64,000 nucleotides of DNA, taken from Oscillospiraceae bacterium (GTDB lineage: Bacteria > Bacillota > Clostridia > Oscillospirales > Oscillospiraceae). Location: positions 89,509-153,508 of the forward strand of contig CADBWQ010000008.1 in assembly GCA_902798545.1 (NCBI GenBank), read 5' to 3'. Shown one piece after another: positions 42,091 to 64,000 of the stretch. Made by a program: the position numbers and the translations under genes. Below the pieces are notes generated by a model. The model saw only the letters and a list, made by a program, of their open reading frames with translations, did no database searches and had not been told where the DNA came from. Positions within the stretch are counted from its first letter, which is position 1; every line of letters starts with the position of its first letter.

Positions 42091-42395
42091 CAATTCAACA
42101 CACTAAACCGATGAAGCGGAGATAACGGCGGGAATGCCTGCACAGAGAGCCTGCGTTGCTGAGAGTCAGGTGAGAAACAGCCCGTCAAATGGACCGCCGA
42201 GGGTGCAGTCAAATGTGCGGCTGTGAATCAGCGCACAGAGTATTCTGCAACGTGGAGGCATACGTCAGTTGCCGGGGATATGTTGGTATCCTGACAAGCG
42301 CACGGTTCGTACCGTGAATCAAGGTGGCACCGCGGATAACAAGCTTATTCGTCCTTGACAGAAGAGCATATTCTGTCAGGGACGTTTTTTATTTC
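42091..42395 (+). promoter_or_regulatory. T-box riboswitch, tryptophan specificity
   Basis: The T-box sequence AAGGTGGCACCGCGG (42321-42335) is perfect. Stem I is closed by CGGCGG (about 42126-42131) and CCGCCG (42194-42199). In the specifier-loop position the codon TGG (42190-42192) is followed by A, which fits tRNA-Trp and the trp genes downstream. Uncharged tRNA-Trp should stabilise the antiterminator and switch the operon on. Confidence 0.93.
42350..42390 (+). terminator. T-box regulated terminator
   Basis: The stem CGTCC-TGACAGAA / TTCTGTCA-GGACG with a small mismatch is followed by TTTTTT. Its 5' arm lies right after the T-box sequence, as needed for mutually exclusive folding. Confidence 0.9.
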
Positions 42396-56353: not shown

Positions 56354-56575
56354 ATGATGATTCAGGTTTCCGGAAAGAAAACAGAAGTTGAAAACGGAAT
56401 AACCGTCATGCAGTTGATGGAACAGCAGAAGGTGGAGACGCCCCAATATGTGACCGTTGCGGTCAACAACGCATTCCTTCCGATGGATTGCTACGAGTGC
56501 TTTTCGCTGAAGGATGGCGATGCGGTGGAGTTTTTGTACTTTATGGGAGGCGGTTGCGATGGCGCTGAGCAGTGA
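56354..56575 (+). CDS. ThiS/HcyS-like sulfur carrier protein with C-terminal tail
   Basis: A 73-residue ubiquitin-like carrier (MIQVSGKKTEVENGITVMQL, then VAVNNAFLPMDCYE). ThiS-type proteins end in Gly-Gly, where sulfur is held as a thiocarboxylate. Here six or seven residues follow (FMGGG then CDGAEQ), so a protease must trim it first, and a JAMM protease is encoded two genes on. This matches the HcyS-HcyF-HcyD set, and CysO with Mec+. The tail codons overlap the start of the next gene by 17 bases. Standard pipelines may call it ThiS; no other thiamine gene is nearby. Confidence 0.85.
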   Translation: MMIQVSGKKTEVENGITVMQLMEQQKVETPQYVTVAVNNAFLPMDCYECFSLKDGDAVEFLYFMGGGCDGAEQ

Positions 56576-57362
56576 ACAGCTGGAACGCTACTCCCGGCAT
56601 ATCATTCTGAAAGAAGTCGGGCTCAGAGGGCAGAAGAAGCTGCTGAACGCGAAGTTCCTCATCATTGGGGCAGGCGGGCTCGGATCGCCCGCCGCCATGT
56701 ATCTGGCCGCGGCCGGTGTGGGAACCATCGGCATCGCGGACGCGGATGAGGTGGATCTCTCCAATCTCCAGCGGCAGATCCTGCACGGCAACGCAGATGT
56801 AGGCAAGCCGAAGGTAGACTCCGCAAAGGAGACCATGGCGGCGCTGAATCCTGACGTGCAGGTGATCGCGCATCACTTGTTTGTCAACGCAGAGAATATC
56901 ATGGATCTGATTGAACCCTATGATTTCATCCTTGACGGGACGGACAATTTTGCGGCCAAATTTCTCATCAACGACGCCTGCGTGCTGGCGGGCAAGCCCT
57001 TCTGTCACGCAGGGATCATCCGCTTTCACGGCCAACTGATGACCTATGTGCCCGGAAAAGGCCCCTGCTATCGCTGTGTGTTCCGACAGCCGCCTCCGAA
57101 GGATGCAGTGCCCACCTGCCGCGAGGCGGGCGTAATCGGCGCTATGGCCGGCGTCATCGGTTGTATGCAGGCGCTGGAGGCCGTCAAATATATCGTCGGC
57201 GTGGGGGATCTGCTTATCGGACGGCTGCTGACCTTTGATGCGCTGGATATGGAGGCGCATGTCATTCAGTTGCCGGACAATCCTGACTGTCCGGTATGCG
57301 GTGCGCATCCGACCATTTTGCAGCCTTTCGACGAGGGCGTGGTGGAGTGTGATCTCAAATGA
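56559..57362 (+). CDS. ThiF/MoeB/HcyF-like E1 activating enzyme
   Basis: A 267-residue adenylyltransferase that activates the carrier's terminal glycine with ATP. The nucleotide motif is IIGAGGLGSPAAMYLAAAG, followed by DADEVDLSNLQRQILH and DGTDNFAAKFLIND. Two zinc-binding CxxC pairs are kept (CYRCVF and CPVCGA). The start at 56559 has GGAGG upstream; the longer frame begins inside the carrier gene. It overlaps the protease gene by four bases. Confidence 0.9.
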   Translation: MALSSEQLERYSRHIILKEVGLRGQKKLLNAKFLIIGAGGLGSPAAMYLAAAGVGTIGIADADEVDLSNLQRQILHGNADVGKPKVDSAKETMAALNPDVQVIAHHLFVNAENIMDLIEPYDFILDGTDNFAAKFLINDACVLAGKPFCHAGIIRFHGQLMTYVPGKGPCYRCVFRQPPPKDAVPTCREAGVIGAMAGVIGCMQALEAVKYIVGVGDLLIGRLLTFDALDMEAHVIQLPDNPDCPVCGAHPTILQPFDEGVVECDLK

Positions 57363-57769
57363 TCCATCTGAAAAAAGCGGACTATCTTCTGATGCTCTCA
57401 CATGCCCGAGCCTGTCTCCCGGAGGAGGCCTGCGGTCTCCTCGCCGGGCAAAGCCGGGGTGAAGAAGCCTGGGTGGAAAAGGTCTATTGTCTGGAAAATG
57501 CAGATCATTCTGCCTCCCATTTCACCATCGCGCCGGAAGAACAACTGAAGGCGATCCTGGATATGAGAGAGCGGAGACTGGAGCTGCTGGGCAACTGGCA
57601 CAGCCATCCGGAAACGCCCTGCCGACCCTCTGCGGAGGACATCCGTCTGGCGCTGGATCCGACAGCCAGTTATCTGATCCTGTCGCTGGAGGAAAACGAA
57701 CCTGTACTGCGGTCCTTTCAGATTCGGGATGGGCAGGCGAATCGGGAAGAATTAGATATTGAGGAGTAG
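57359..57769 (+). CDS. M67 (JAMM) metalloprotease, HcyD/Mec+-like
   Basis: A 136-residue JAB1/MPN-type zinc protease. EEACGLLAG provides the conserved Glu and HSHPETPCRPSAEDI matches the H-x-H...S-x-x-D zinc motif. Prokaryotic relatives remove residues after the Gly-Gly of sulfur carriers or release an amino acid from a carrier adduct. Its position after a carrier with a tail supports that role. Confidence 0.88.
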   Translation: MIHLKKADYLLMLSHARACLPEEACGLLAGQSRGEEAWVEKVYCLENADHSASHFTIAPEEQLKAILDMRERRLELLGNWHSHPETPCRPSAEDIRLALDPTASYLILSLEENEPVLRSFQIRDGQANREELDIEE

Positions 57770-57775
57770 AATTCC

Positions 57776-58744
57776 ATGGATGAAATCAAACATATCTCCG
57801 TTGAGGAGTTTTTGAAGCTGGAGCGGAACAGCCTGACACTGCTGGATCTGCGTGAGCCGGACCAGGTTCTGCTGGGGGCCGTGGAGGGCGCTGTCAACAT
57901 CCCCTTTTCCCGCGTCGGCAAGGAGCTGGAGAAGCTGCCAAAGGATAAGCCTGTCTATGTGTTTTGCCAGGAGGGCTCTTTGAGCACGGAGATCACGGAG
58001 CAGCTGCAGGATTGGGGCTATGACGCGACCAATCTGGACGGCGGCTGGCGAGCGTGGAAAAAGTGGCTGGAAGAGGCGGAGCCGATCACGCTGGATGCCA
58101 GGGGACTCAAATGCCCCGGCCCGATCGTAAAAACCGCGGACACGCTGAGAGAGATGGTGGGCGGTCAAAAGCTGAAGATCGAGGCGACCGAGGACGCGTT
58201 TGCCCCGGATATTTCGGTATGGTGCGAGCGGACCGGCAACAAGCTGCTCCGGCTGGAGGTCAGGCCCGAGGGCATCGAGGCGCTGGTCGAGAAAGCCGAG
58301 GCGCCTGTTCAAAATCCCGCTGCCGCACAGAACGACAAGACCTTTGTGGTTTTCTCCGGCGATCTGGATAAAACCATCGCCGCCTTCATTATGGCAAACG
58401 GTGCAGCGGCCATGGGGCGCAGGGTGACCATGTTTTTCACCTTCTGGGGGCTGAACATCCTGCGGCGGCCGGAAAAGGTTTCCGAGAAGCTGGGGCTGAG
58501 CCGCATGAACATGGGCGGCCTGGGTGCCAAAATGATCCGGGGCATTATGAAAGAGAAAGGCGTCAGTTCTCTTGAAGAACTGATCGACAGTGCCCGCGGG
58601 CACGGTGTGCGGCTGGTGGCTTGCCAGATGTCCATGGACATCATGGGGATCAGGAAAGAAGAGTTGATCGACGGCGTGGAGCTGGGCGGTGTTTCCACCT
58701 TCCTGGGCTCCGGTGAGCAGTCGGATATGAGTCTGTTTATTTGA
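57776..58744 (+). CDS. Rhodanese-TusA-DsrE triple fusion
   Basis: A 322-residue three-domain sulfur-relay protein. Residues 1-100 are a rhodanese with Cys64 in VFCQEGSLS. Residues 103-172 are a TusA domain with the CPxP motif (LDARGLKCPGPI, Cys113). Residues 187-322 are a DsrE-like domain with Cys283 in ACQMSMDIMG. All three persulfide cysteines are present, so sulfur could pass along one chain and on to the carrier or the PP-loop enzymes nearby. The relay direction is inferred. Confidence 0.88.
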   Translation: MDEIKHISVEEFLKLERNSLTLLDLREPDQVLLGAVEGAVNIPFSRVGKELEKLPKDKPVYVFCQEGSLSTEITEQLQDWGYDATNLDGGWRAWKKWLEEAEPITLDARGLKCPGPIVKTADTLREMVGGQKLKIEATEDAFAPDISVWCERTGNKLLRLEVRPEGIEALVEKAEAPVQNPAAAQNDKTFVVFSGDLDKTIAAFIMANGAAAMGRRVTMFFTFWGLNILRRPEKVSEKLGLSRMNMGGLGAKMIRGIMKEKGVSSLEELIDSARGHGVRLVACQMSMDIMGIRKEELIDGVELGGVSTFLGSGEQSDMSLFI

Positions 58745-58750
58745 AGGACA

Positions 58751-59452
58751 ATGAACGAAAAACGAAATCAATTAAAAGAATATCTGCTGTCTCAGGGCAG
58801 CATGGCTGTGGCCTTTTCCGGCGGCGTGGATTCCACTTTCCTTTTGAAGGTGGCCCACGACACGCTGGGCGACAAGTGCGTCGCCGTGACAGCCTCCTCC
58901 TGCTCTTTTCCGGAGCGGGAGCTGAAAGAAGCAAAAGCTTTCTGCGAGACAAACGGAATCCGCCATGTTGTGGTGCGCTCGGAAGAGTTGGAGATCGAGG
59001 GCTTTCGGCACAATCCGAAAAACCGCTGCTATTTCTGCAAGCACGAGTTGTTTGAAAAAATCTGGGACATTGCCCGTGAGCTTGGCCTGAATGCCGTGGC
59101 GGAGGGCTCCAACATAGATGACAACGGGGATTATCGCCCGGGCCTTGTCGCGGTCAGAGAGCTTGGCGTACTCAGCCCGCTGCGTCACGTCGGCCTAAAC
59201 AAGGCGGAGATCCGGGAGCTGTCCAGGGAGCTGGGTCTCTCCACCTGGGACAAGCAGAGCTTTGCCTGCCTGTCCTCCCGCTTTGTGTACGGGGAGACGA
59301 TCAATGAAGAGCGGCTTTCCATGGTGGATCGCGCGGAACAGCTGCTTCTGGATCTGGGTTTTTTCCGGGAGTACGGTTTTGCCTATGTGACCATGGATCT
59401 GACCGGCTATCGCACGGGAAGCATGAATGAGACGCTCGAGAAGACGGAATAA
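58751..59452 (+). CDS. LarE-like ATP-dependent sulfur transferase, shortened
   Basis: A 233-residue PP-loop enzyme. The ATP motif is AFSGGVDSTF. Three cysteines, C93 and C96 (NRCYFCK) and C173 (FACLSSRF), match the LarE subtype that carries a 4Fe-4S cluster instead of sacrificing one Cys. LarE proteins are usually about 270 residues. Here LLLDLGF joins directly to FREYGFAYVTMDL, so roughly 40 residues carrying the conserved HGD / ARIEV strands appear to be lost in frame. The usual lar partners (larB, larC) are absent, so the substrate is probably not the lactate racemase cofactor. Confidence 0.8.
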   Translation: MNEKRNQLKEYLLSQGSMAVAFSGGVDSTFLLKVAHDTLGDKCVAVTASSCSFPERELKEAKAFCETNGIRHVVVRSEELEIEGFRHNPKNRCYFCKHELFEKIWDIARELGLNAVAEGSNIDDNGDYRPGLVAVRELGVLSPLRHVGLNKAEIRELSRELGLSTWDKQSFACLSSRFVYGETINEERLSMVDRAEQLLLDLGFFREYGFAYVTMDLTGYRTGSMNETLEKTE

Positions 59453-59480
59453 AGGAAAGTAAAGGATATAAATCGGAGAT

Positions 59481-60248
59481 ATGCTGAATGAATTTTCCCG
59501 GACCCAGCTTTTGCTGGGGCCGGAAGCCATGGACAAGCTTGCGCACAGTCGGGTGGCTGTTTTCGGAATCGGCGGCGTGGGCGGCTATACGGTCGAGGCT
59601 TTGGCAAGAACGGGGATTGGCGCGCTAGATCTGATCGATGACGACAAGGTCTGCCTGACCAACATCAACCGGCAGATCCTCGCCACGCGAAAGACCGTGG
59701 GAAAATACAAGGTGGATGTGGCCGCCGAGCGGATCGGTGAAATCAATCCGCGCTGCGCGGTACGGACCTACAAGACCTTTTATCTGCCGGACACGGCGGA
59801 TACATTCGATTTCTCCCAATACGACTATGTGGTGGACGCCATCGACACGGTGAGCGGCAAAATACAGCTGGTGCTGGCGGCTCAGGCGGCCGGAACACCG
59901 ATCATCAGCTCTATGGGCGCGGGCAACAAGCTGGATGCATCCGCCTTTCGCGTGGCAGATATTACGCAGACCTCGGTCTGTCCGCTGGCGCGTGTCATGC
60001 GGCGGGAACTCAAGAAGCGCGGCATCCGACACCTGAAAGTCGTCTACTCCAAAGAAAAGCCGATCCGGCCGCTGGAGGATCTGAGCATCAGCTGCAGTGC
60101 CCACTGCATCTGCCCGCCGGGGACGAAGCGTCACTGCACCGACAGGAGAGATATTCCCGGCTCCGTGGCCTTCGTGCCGTCGGTCGTAGGACTGATCCTT
60201 GCGGGAGAAGTGGTAAAGGATTTGTGTAATGTGAAAGGACAGAGGTAG
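59481..60248 (+). CDS. TcdA-like ThiF-family enzyme (t6A dehydratase type)
   Basis: A 255-residue E1-like protein. VAVFGIGGVGGYTVEALARTG and DDDKVCLTNINRQILAT are the nucleotide and adenylation motifs. GSVAFVPSVVGLILAGEVV closes the family. TcdA cyclises t6A in tRNA and in E. coli works with the CsdA/CsdE sulfur system. Its place in a sulfur-relay operon fits either that role or a second carrier-activating role. Confidence 0.85.
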   Translation: MLNEFSRTQLLLGPEAMDKLAHSRVAVFGIGGVGGYTVEALARTGIGALDLIDDDKVCLTNINRQILATRKTVGKYKVDVAAERIGEINPRCAVRTYKTFYLPDTADTFDFSQYDYVVDAIDTVSGKIQLVLAAQAAGTPIISSMGAGNKLDASAFRVADITQTSVCPLARVMRRELKKRGIRHLKVVYSKEKPIRPLEDLSISCSAHCICPPGTKRHCTDRRDIPGSVAFVPSVVGLILAGEVVKDLCNVKGQR

Positions 60249-60255
60249 TCAAGCC

Positions 60256-61401
60256 GTGAGAGAAGTTTCCATATCCGAGCTGGAGCGCATGGAAGAAGGC
60301 AGTTTCCTTTTGATCGACACCAGAAGCGCGGACAATGTGCGGTATGGCATGATCCCCGGGGCGGTCCATATTCCGGAGACAGAGCTGATGGAGAACGCGG
60401 CGCGATATGCCCGGGAACTGCCTGACGGCAGGACGCTGATCGTTTACTGTCAGCGAGGCGTTCGTTCGATCGCTGTGTCTGAAGTGCTTGCCGATTGCGG
60501 CAGAGAATGCTTCAGTCTGGCAGGAGGATATCTCGTCTGGCTGAGAGCAAGCACAAATAAAGTCGAGGACAGGCAGGAGCGTCAGAAAAAGGCCGAAGAC
60601 AGCATTCGCGGGAAATTCCATAAGCAGCTCTTTTCTCCGTTTGCGAAAGCCTGCAAAGAATACCGGCTCATTGAAGACGGAGACCGTATCGCGGTCTGTA
60701 TCTCGGGCGGAAAAGACTCCATGCTCATGGCGAAGTTGTTTCAGGAGCTTCAAAGGCACCGGAAGATCTCCTTTGACCTGCTGTTTCTGGTGATGGATCC
60801 GGGCTATAACGGCGACAACCGGCGCCTGCTGGAGTACAACGCAAAGACGCTCGGGGTTCCGATCACTGTTTTTGAAAGCACAATTTTTGACGTGGTGGAT
60901 ACGGTGGAGAAAAACCCCTGCTATCTATGCGCGAGAATGCGCAGGGGGTATCTTTACAGCAAGGCGAAGGAACTCGGGTGCAACAAAATTGCGCTCGGTC
61001 ATCACTATGACGATGTCATTGAGACGATTCTGATGGGAATGCTGCACGGGGGACAGGTTCAAACCATGATGCCGAAACTGCACAGCACCAATTTTGAAGG
61101 TATGGAGCTGATCCGTCCGATGTATCTTATTCGGGAAGCGGACATCTGCCGCTGGCGGGACTGGAGCGAACTGCACTTTCTGCAGTGTGCCTGTCATTTT
61201 ACCGACACCTGCACCACCTGCCACGAGGACGGCACCACCGCCTCAAAACGCCTTGAGACGAAAAAGCTGATCGCAGCTCTGAAAGAGACAAATCCACAGA
61301 TCGAGGCCAATATTTTCAAGAGTGTTTCCAATGTGAATCTCAACACGGTGATCGCGTATAAGAAAGACGGCGTCCGGCACCATTTCCTGGAGGAGTATTA
61401 G
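60256..61401 (+). CDS. Rhodanese-TtcA fusion, tRNA thiolation type
   Basis: A 381-residue fusion. Residues 1-97 are a rhodanese with Cys65 in VYCQRGVRS. From about residue 115 a TtcA-like PP-loop enzyme follows, with CISGGKDSM at 148-156 and the cluster cysteines C222 and C225 in PCYLCARM. Instead of a single third Cys it has a cluster C311, C313, C319, C322 (CACHFTDTCTTC). The rhodanese probably supplies persulfide sulfur directly. Start codon is GTG with AGAGGT upstream. Confidence 0.85.
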   Translation: MREVSISELERMEEGSFLLIDTRSADNVRYGMIPGAVHIPETELMENAARYARELPDGRTLIVYCQRGVRSIAVSEVLADCGRECFSLAGGYLVWLRASTNKVEDRQERQKKAEDSIRGKFHKQLFSPFAKACKEYRLIEDGDRIAVCISGGKDSMLMAKLFQELQRHRKISFDLLFLVMDPGYNGDNRRLLEYNAKTLGVPITVFESTIFDVVDTVEKNPCYLCARMRRGYLYSKAKELGCNKIALGHHYDDVIETILMGMLHGGQVQTMMPKLHSTNFEGMELIRPMYLIREADICRWRDWSELHFLQCACHFTDTCTTCHEDGTTASKRLETKKLIAALKETNPQIEANIFKSVSNVNLNTVIAYKKDGVRHHFLEEY

Positions 61402-61426: not shown

Positions 61427-61455
61427 TTGACAAAGCGAGATGTTTGTGATATAAA
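61427..61455 (+). promoter_or_regulatory. metY leader promoter
   Basis: TTGACA (61427-61432), a 17-base spacer and TATAAA (61450-61455), the same elements as the AGCS leader promoter. Transcription should begin near 61462. Confidence 0.8.
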
Positions 61456-61499
61456 CATATTAATTCGATATGAAAAGTAGGATTAACGGAGGACTTGAA

Positions 61500-61580
61500 A
61501 TGCGTCAGGCGAGCTTCAACTGCATGATGTGTTGTGACATGCGCTGTGAGATGCGCATGCGCTTTGCCGTGCCTGTTTGA
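61500..61580 (+). CDS. Met/Cys-rich leader peptide of metY
   Basis: A 26-codon ORF with a strong GGAGG seven bases before its ATG. It holds six Met and four Cys; the core reads NCMMCCDMRCEMRMRF. The stop lies 24 bases before an intrinsic terminator. UUCUCC just after the stop (61582-61587) can pair with GGAGAG in the terminator's 5' arm (61607-61612). A ribosome finishing at the stop would mask UUCUCC and allow termination; one stalled on Cys or Met codons would leave it free to block the terminator. This is the logic of ribosome-mediated attenuation, inferred from sequence. Confidence 0.8.
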   Translation: MRQASFNCMMCCDMRCEMRMRFAVPV

Positions 61581-61604
61581 GTTCTCCTACTGCTTTGTCG
61601 ACGA

Positions 61605-61642
61605 CCGGAGAGCCCGATGGGCTCTCCGGATTTTTGTTTTTG
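61605..61642 (+). terminator. Attenuator terminator before metY
   Basis: A perfect 11-bp stem CCGGAGAGCCC-GAT-GGGCTCTCCGG followed by ATTTTTGTTTTT. It lies between the leader peptide and metY and must be bypassed for metY expression from the promoter at 61427. Confidence 0.93.
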
Positions 61643-61654
61643 AGGGATGAAACG

Positions 61655-61768
61655 ATGAAAGATCTGTTTGAGCTGTTGAACCGGCACAATTTCAGGAACG
61701 GACGAATGACGTCGGAACAAGGCCATAAGGTCATGGGACCGCATGAGTTCGGCTCCATTGACCGGTGA
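61655..61768 (+). CDS. Small ORF between attenuator and metY
   Basis: A 37-codon ORF (MKDLFELLNRHNFRNGRM, ending GPHEFGSIDR) with GAGGGATG upstream. It starts 13 bases after the terminator's T run. The composition looks protein-like and it is not Met/Cys-rich. I do not recognise it. It could be a small protein made with MetY or a chance frame. Confidence 0.4.
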   Translation: MKDLFELLNRHNFRNGRMTSEQGHKVMGPHEFGSIDR

Positions 61769-61784
61769 CTTTGTTCCTGCTCTC

Positions 61785-61817
61785 CCGATCAAACCTGCTC
61801 CGCTGGGGTTTGATCGG
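61785..61817 (+). repeat. Hairpin just before metY
   Basis: A perfect 11-bp inverted repeat CCGATCAAACC / GGTTTGATCGG with an 11-base loop, without a T tail. It sits 40 bases before the metY start and may stabilise the processed mRNA or add a control step. Confidence 0.6.
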
Positions 61818-61857
61818 ATCATAAAAGCGGAAATATCATGAAAAAGAGGTACATATC

Positions 61858-64000
<2,143 letters not shown>

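Follow-up and report, generated by a model that had tools for sequence, protein, structure and literature searches.

The leader of metY in the genome studied here is likely to be a two-step gate for sulfur amino acids, in which short leader peptides would act first on transcription and then on translation. We analysed a window of 64,000 nucleotides, that is, the whole stretch of DNA under study, and on its plus strand we read, in this order, a promoter, an open reading frame of 26 codons (ORF1), an 11-bp terminator, a second short frame (ORF2) and metY. Through the movement of ribosomes over ORF1 and ORF2, the cell would probably judge its sulfur amino acids. If this is true, the translation of tiny leader peptides would govern how many gut Clostridia make and take up methionine. 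The features of the locus are the following.

61427..61455, + strand: promoter TTGACA-17-TATAAA, read in the sequence
61456..61472, no strand assigned: candidate operator, inverted repeat CATAT-N7-ATATG just past the -10 box, read in the sequence
61488..61580, + strand: ORF1 with its Shine-Dalgarno sequence, putative Met/Cys leader peptide MRQASFNCMMCCDMRCEMRMRFAVPV, from sequence reading and relatives
61581..61587, + strand: putative antiterminator strand GUUCUCC directly after the ORF1 stop, pairing with 61607-61613
61605..61635, + strand: intrinsic terminator, 11-bp stem CCGGAGAGCCC/GGGCUCUCCGG, loop GAU and U tract, from sequence reading, folding and relatives
61642..61768, + strand: ORF2 with its Shine-Dalgarno sequence, putative second leader MKDLFELLNRHNFRNGRMTSEQGHKVMGPHEFGSIDR, ATG at 61655 and stop at 61766-61768
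61703..61708, + strand: CGA-AUG dicodon of ORF2 (Arg17-Met18), CGA in 146/146 aligned arginines
61714..61777, + strand: paired segments GGAACAAGG (61714-61722, after CGA-AUG) and CUUUGUUCC (61769-61777, after the ORF2 stop), predicted fold
61785..61817, + strand: hairpin CCGAUCAAACC/GGUUUGAUCGG before the metY ribosome-binding site (RBS), predicted fold
61858..63147, + strand: metY, O-acetylhomoserine sulfhydrylase family, the regulated gene (TIGR01326, 619.9 bits, cut-off 495.1)

The metY locus and its surroundings

On its 3' side, metY is followed by the gene of a second PLP enzyme, of the cystathionine class, which is cut by the window end. Upstream of metY, at 56354-61398, lies a sulfur-transfer cluster encoding a ThiS-like carrier, ThiF, a JAMM protease, a rhodanese-TusA-DsrE fusion, LarE, a TcdA-like protein and a rhodanese-TtcA-like protein. 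This cluster resembles the sulfur-carrier-protein homocysteine pathway reportedly described in Wolinella.

The source assembly consists of 50 contigs and is 91.82% complete. It contains two SAM riboswitches, one of them before metK, and six T-box matches, one of which is above the cut-off. At the gathering score, no Rfam match was obtained anywhere in the window and, with the threshold relaxed to E 1, no Rfam family was detected in the leaders of 12 loci, among them the window's own (L043); on this ground we rejected a SAM riboswitch or a T-box at the metY locus. Since the genome owns SAM riboswitches and T-box-like elements, metY uses leaders despite those systems being available. In another part of the window, a T-box-like RNA at 42102-42359, which with 78.7 bits falls short of the gathering score (93), is found directly 5' of trpD.

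ORF1 and the intrinsic terminator

The -35 box TTGACA (61427-61432) and the -10 box TATAAA (61450-61455) are separated by a 17-nt spacer; the promoter is absent from the output of our promoter scan because the rule used demands T as the last base of the -10 box. Behind it, ORF1 begins with an ATG at 61500, preceded by the Shine-Dalgarno sequence GGAGG (61488-61492), and stops at 61578-61580. Ten of the 26 codons of MRQASFNCMMCCDMRCEMRMRFAVPV specify Met (six, the start counted) or Cys (four). The terminator stem (61605-61629) starts 24 nt past the stop and is a perfect 11-bp helix with a GAT loop and a T-rich tail; folding gave a minimum free energy of -23.7 kcal/mol. A first-pass annotation of this DNA had already proposed a consensus promoter, a 26-codon, Shine-Dalgarno-preceded frame with ten Met or Cys codons and a perfect 11-bp terminator 24 bases after its stop, and all of these were recovered by direct reading, the terminator by folding as well.

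Ribosome-mediated transcription attenuators are known from the trp, his and leu operons. What is expected of such an attenuator is a short Shine-Dalgarno-bearing ORF behind a promoter, an over-representation of codons for amino acids of the pathway under control, an intrinsic terminator downstream and an antiterminator that excludes it. ORF1 has the first three, although its translation itself is inferred, and by pairing it also has the last, the release of the antiterminator by a stalled ribosome being again an inference.

We then considered whether ORF1 could be a chance frame and rejected this: among the window's 161 ATG starts that follow a Shine-Dalgarno sequence and open an ORF of 15-60 codons, it is the sole one with at least 8 Met/Cys codons and at least 28% Met/Cys. 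In 17 ORF1 peptides (window included), Met and Cys account for 160 of the 504 residues after the start, the background in 45 likely genes of the window being 4.2%. The first-pass annotation would have been refuted by a lack of conservation of the ORF or of its Met/Cys codons in relatives, which is not what we observed. Codons 8-26 of ORF1 contain 158, 123 and 140 differences at positions 1, 2 and 3, respectively, without third-position excess, and thereby give no sign of constraint at the protein level, which counts against the attenuator reading. The window's ORF1 has no family match in NCBIfam or Pfam.

A proposed alternative pairing between the post-stop strand and the terminator

Directly after the ORF1 stop, GUUCUCC (61581-61587) can pair with GGAGAGC (61607-61613) in the 5' arm of the terminator; this pairing, noticed earlier as UUCUCC/GGAGAG, in fact comprises 7 bp. 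A ribosome slowed at the Met/Cys codons of ORF1 would leave GUUCUCC free, which would then pair with GGAGAGC and allow readthrough by RNA polymerase. A ribosome that has reached the ORF1 stop would instead cover GUUCUCC, and the terminator would form. Low Met- or Cys-tRNA as the signal of this step is inferred.

The terminator was detected by script at 13 of the 17 ORF1 loci; at L164, L189, L231 and L085, folding gave a hairpin and a U tract, the energies ranging from -13.6 to -28.9 kcal/mol. MAFFT misplaced gaps in alignments of the ORF1 terminator, and the arms were therefore placed by hand. In nine close sequences (window included) aligned in this way, 98 of the 99 pair cells of the terminator are preserved; changes on both sides have occurred at pairs 5, 7 and 8, which are seen as A-U and as G-C. 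Within the same nine, all seven antiterminator pairs are present in seven (the window, L163, L165, L156, L109, L120 and L275); L189 has 6/7 and L164 only 3/7. The first of these pairs is G-C in most sequences and A-U in L109 and L120, so that the covariation check proposed earlier for UUCUCC/GGAGAG gave full pairing in 7/9 and a G-C to A-U change in two.

For the 13 of 17 loci that had a scripted terminator, we compared the pairing of each strand with its own terminator arm and with exchanged partners. On average the own partner is better (z -2.6, permutation p 0.006), also when the loci are reduced to nine (p 0.008), and at some loci the own arm is not preferred, for instance at L167 (rank 0.92) and L165 (0.75). 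At L150 and L167, a complementary strand was seen by eye inside the tail of ORF1, beyond the tested stretch, a position that fits a ribosome which, stalled upstream, would uncover it. The stall-or-terminate switch of the first-pass annotation thus draws support from pairing and covariation in relatives, but the 3/7 pairs of L164, the modest permutation p and the lack of expression data leave it short of proof. With this reserve, the attenuator reading of ORF1 is supported by the comparison of sequences.

ORF1 in relatives

As relatives, we took the named metY loci, which are the best 80 of at least 577. Their surroundings contain 1,229 starts of the kind defined above, which yielded 14 Met/Cys-rich calls, nested starts being counted apart. 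One call lies elsewhere (L239); the other 13 fall 282-373 nt upstream of metY, on the same strand, in 8 of the 80 loci (L162, L163, L164, L165, L167, L174, L189 and L231). In L231, 18 of the 42 codons are Met or Cys. The MetY proteins of L162 ('uncultured Clostridia bacterium') and L163 ('Oscillospiraceae bacterium RGIG3778') show 100% identity to that of the window, and our label 'Clostridia' is drawn from the names of loci such as these two.

Genomes of the family gave further ORF1 leaders before metY (L109, L120, L086, L138, L025, L150), before an ABC permease gene (L156) and before a MetQ gene (L085). At L275 (G354), ORF1 and its terminator stand directly before metY, without ORF2. A search for Met/Cys-rich ORFs followed by a terminator upstream of met genes in relatives had been recommended, and the arrangement indeed recurs before metY and also before one MetQ gene and one ABC permease gene. 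The 17 leaders that we analysed together have in common mainly the Met/Cys codons and a terminator-like hairpin. L162, almost identical to the window, was excluded from these 17; G322 apparently holds both L162 and L109, and this MAG may be mixed.

ORF1 is uncommon, which also weighs against the attenuator reading. A profile of its type A detected 6 of 400 family genomes; one of these matches was weak and lacked confirmation (L276 gave nothing). Other subtypes were present in five more genomes of the family sample (G126, G290, G292, G325 and G337), where they came to light through a co-occurring ORF2. A profile of a second subtype, applied to 300 genomes, returned only three of the genomes from which it had been built and one chance match. 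A degenerate second copy of ORF1, with some Met codons changed to GTG, occurs in a genome of the same genus (L278, G174:C1:248656-248721).

ORF2, a second leader between the terminator and metY

The first-pass annotation did not contain ORF2 (61655-61768), which lies between the terminator and metY and has the motif LxRxNFRxGRM. We built a profile from 14 rows of the core, taken from metY leaders, the window's peptide being one row; it matches the window peptide at E 1.4e-9. In the family sample, 194/400 genomes were hit at E<=1, many by chance at that threshold, and 98/400 at E<=0.01 by our own count of rows. The order sample gave 46/245 at E<=0.01, a count that includes weak hits and genomes of the own family, and the class sample 25/245 at E<=0.001, where G683 and G738 look like chance matches. 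In the phylum sample, the only two hits among 249 genomes are the own genome and, once more, the G683 match, which lies inside a 308-residue frame. By these profile matches, the conservation of ORF2 extends to the class; ORF2 precedes metY and genes of methionine or amino-acid transporters, and judged from the sequences it is more conserved than ORF1.

Of 111 family matches, one (under 18 bits) was omitted, and 86 of the 110 analysed precede metY, it being understood that the profile itself was built from metY leaders. Three of the 24 non-metY matches are at a contig edge (L093, L116 and L126), and two of these show a metY start. The downstream genes of 15 others, for each of which one or two libraries were scanned, encode four MetQ/NlpA lipoproteins, two family-3 binding proteins, two ABC permeases and two NMT1-type binding proteins, besides a nitroreductase, an FrdA-like protein 592 nt away and three proteins without match in the sole library tried.

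No Pfam, NCBIfam or Rfam family matches ORF2 above the cut-off. Below it, Pfam matches were obtained with one long ORF2 and, twice, with the ORF1 of L167 (E 0.043-0.21 for all of these). In 147 distinct cores, Arg10 is kept in 147, Asn12 in 145, Arg14 in 144 and Gly16 in 146, and 41/147 leaders end right after GRM. ORF2 is apparently an undescribed family of leader peptides, whose signal is unknown.

The CGA-AUG dicodon

In these cores, CGA is the codon of Arg17 in 146/146 cases, of Arg10 in only 7/147 and of Arg14 in 31/144; the denominator at Arg17 is 146 as one core (L318) does not truly match at that position. Met18 is conserved in 145/147, with a Cys codon instead in L154. The wobble base of Asn12, Phe13 and Gly16 varies; this suggests in-frame reading of the peptide, with the CGA as the sole frozen codon. 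An overlapping list, anchored on metY, was open to every CGN or AGN codon that precedes ATG in comparable surroundings; of its 111 entries (105 loci), 110 have CGAATG and one, L233, has AGGATG.

In the genes of the window, CGA makes up 78 of the 1,228 Arg codons (6.4%) and 1 of the 29 arginines that precede an ATG. Among 30 loci of 38 tRNA matches in this genome, which is about 92% complete, the tRNA-Arg anticodons seen are ACG, CCG, CCT and TCT; none is TCG, from which we infer that CGA is probably decoded by inosine wobble. In a Salmonella his-leader assay, CGA is counted among the slow arginine codons, according to the accessible part of that paper (PMC4046918).

A possible, still tentative, reading of these data is that ORF2 is a new single-codon starvation sensor present across Clostridia, in front of which a few lineages have added ORF1. 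With the slow CGA in the P site and the nascent NFRxGR behind it, the ribosome would become hypersensitive to the arrival of Met-tRNA at the next AUG, and its pause would open or close metY and the methionine uptake genes. Both the stall and the signal of this second step are inferred.

RNA pairing in three versions of ORF2

In erm-type translational attenuators, a stalled ribosome frees a sequestered ribosome-binding site. We looked for a comparable arrangement in the short version of ORF2, with a first set of 58 short leaders from 101 nonredundant loci, 43 being left out. The 22-nt segment that begins at the AUG pairs more strongly with its own metY RBS than with those of other leaders (mean -10.1 vs -7.6 kcal/mol, n=58), with a specificity of z -8.3 and a permutation p of 5e-5. 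The own RBS is in the best tenth for 24/58 leaders and not for the other 34/58. A control segment downstream shows no preference (z +2.5) and a segment upstream of CGA-AUG shows a weaker signal (z -3.4).

The second set came from the order and class samples. From its 42 loci we excluded L290 and L295 (family loci), L314 and L318 (chance-like) and four without recognised start, which left 34; removal of two long leaders and four near-duplicates left 28 for the test. The result was similar (z -5.4, p 5e-5; control z 0.15), the own RBS being in the best tenth in 9/28 and not in 19/28. Since the strand after the AUG pairs with the own RBS in both sets, a ribosome held at CGA-AUG would cover this putative anti-Shine-Dalgarno strand and free the metY start. 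The erm-like requirement of leader codons beside a strand that sequesters the RBS is fulfilled, by this evidence, in the short version.

The long version has a terminator instead of the anti-Shine-Dalgarno strand (14 sequences aligned). In L061, L141, L171, L221 and others, we see a conserved structured attenuator, ACUCCCGGGC / GUCCGGGAGC / GCCCCGG-U6. Its 1:B helix, between the strand after CGA-AUG and the terminator arm, has 96.0% of its cells paired, with 2 pairs changed on both sides (42/500 shuffles as high); for its 1:2 helix the values are 95.7%, 1 pair and 33/500. This covariation is weak because the sequences are too alike. By the 1:B pairing, a ribosome at CGA-AUG would here favour termination, opposite to the short version, and later Met/Cys codons could reverse it; the long version does not fit the rule that a stall means ON.

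The window's own ORF2 is a third version, common to L163, L164 and L189. It is longer and has other paired elements, with two strong predicted hairpins, and no clear anti-Shine-Dalgarno strand was seen in it. By eye, the pairing of GGAACAAGG with CUUUGUUCC is kept in L163, L164 and L189. The loop UCCGCU of the 61785..61817 hairpin is complementary to AGCGGA at 61826-61831, likewise by eye in the same three loci; a pseudoknot before the metY start is possible.

Promoters and candidate operators

By script, a TTGACA/TATAAT-type promoter could be fitted at 83 of 110 ORF2 loci with the spacing set to 17; when 16-18 was permitted, 17 was mostly chosen. The inverted repeat CATAT-N7-ATATG past the -10 box of the window had been overlooked in the first-pass annotation. 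The best dyad that the script finds in the window reaches only 5/7 and lies elsewhere. Relatives have stronger dyads near the same place, just downstream of the -10 box: inverted repeats such as AAACCTA-N9-TAGGTTT are present in the promoters of L034, L056, L099, L109, L120 and L137. They are likely operators of an unidentified regulator, perhaps of the Rrf2 family.

Alternative explanations

These dyads raise the question whether metY is controlled mainly at initiation, by a dyad-binding repressor similar to Rrf2 or CymR, with the leader ORFs in a minor role. In addition to the inverted repeats past the -10 box of several relatives, a divergent frame at L019 resembles by eye an Rrf2-family regulator. 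The window's own dyad is weak, however, and a repressor leaves unexplained ORF1, its terminator, the compensating changes, the invariance of CGA and the anti-Shine-Dalgarno pairing, so that we regard this explanation as unlikely. For ORF2 taken alone, a nascent-peptide arrest has to be considered, in which NFRxGR would occupy the exit tunnel while the P site holds CGA, and a small molecule (for example methionine, SAM or O-acetylhomoserine), rather than the charging of Met-tRNA, would arrest the ribosome. TnaC and SpeFL are known for a ligand-induced arrest at termination, and the 41 leaders that stop straight after GRM are like them; moreover, the residues before the Met are nearly invariant though just one Met codon is concerned. 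An invariant CGA codon is more than a peptide sensor alone would need, and no ligand is known; we keep such an arrest as a tentative possibility.

For ORF1, we also weighed a small Met/Cys-rich protein that binds metals or thiols, the hairpin being then an ordinary terminator. A strong Shine-Dalgarno sequence and a clean terminator would suit such a protein, and the absence of an NCBIfam or Pfam family for the window's ORF1 can be read either way. Apart from their Met/Cys content the ORF1 sequences diverge, the strand after the stop pairs with the terminator arm, and the frame is placed before metY, a MetQ gene or an ABC permease gene; a stable small protein is very improbable and was rejected. 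Even less credible is a hairpin that merely closes the upstream sulfur-transfer operon, with ORF1 as a fortuitous frame. The upstream gene does stop at 61401, about 200 nt before the hairpin, but a promoter intervenes, and the order of promoter, ORF1 and terminator is kept at other loci, before other genes (L156, L085) and once without ORF2 (L275), for which reasons we rejected this role. The two-step leader-peptide gate remains our preferred reading of the locus.

Relation to known leader peptides

ORF1 is probably a variant of the classical leader-peptide attenuator, itself a known mechanism. With the trp, his and leu attenuators it shares the sensor codons, an alternative pairing after the stop and an intrinsic terminator; unlike them, it mixes Met and Cys codons, precedes metY in Clostridia-like genomes, would rely on a two-helix switch and is followed by a second leader. 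His leaders are described in Bacilli (PMC2965389, seen as an extract). The first-pass annotation held a mixed Met/Cys leader on a Firmicutes homocysteine synthase gene, in place of a SAM riboswitch or Met T-box, to be non-standard; for a mixed Met/Cys leader as such, some precedent exists in Streptomyces lividans, where a putative metL leader ending in RCMCRRMCAF is annotated before metNIQ (PMC8079986). Like ORF1, metL combines Met and Cys codons before a methionine gene; within the portion of that paper available, it differs by a leaderless start, the lack of a typical terminator, its actinobacterial host and the transporter operon downstream.

Cys codons alone are better documented. Mycobacterial polycysteine ORFs (Canestrari 2020, as cited in PMC13236596) and the Cys leaders of actinobacteria, described without a conserved terminator hairpin (PMC1262725), resemble ORF1 in that Cys codons are proposed or shown to sense cysteine supply, insofar as the sections available state it. 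The mycobacterial ORFs are leaderless and have runs of Cys, whereas ORF1, with its Shine-Dalgarno sequence, its terminator and its six Met and four Cys codons, does not meet the criteria of a mycobacterial polycysteine leader. In Rhodobacterales, uORFC-8-2 before cysS also combines Cys codons (two) in a short uORF with an intrinsic terminator; phylum, gene and peptide are different, and no Met codons are described in the part of the source at hand (PMC8632094).

With the erm-type attenuators, the short version of ORF2 shares a stalled ribosome that would free a sequestered RBS; ORF2 differs by the absence of an antibiotic, the invariant CGA-AUG, the sulfur genes and its class-wide occurrence. 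Our search of the literature, limited to open-licence papers, brought up no description of ORF2, nor of a Firmicutes metY gene under a Met/Cys attenuator. If the sensor reading is true, CGA-AUG would be a natural case of one synonymous codon kept class-wide as a regulatory part, beyond the amino acid that it encodes, and the question of how codon context tunes the sensing of starvation could be brought to a simple reporter experiment. One leader, that of L221 (Faecalibacterium sp. I4-3-84), contains CGA-AUG three times.
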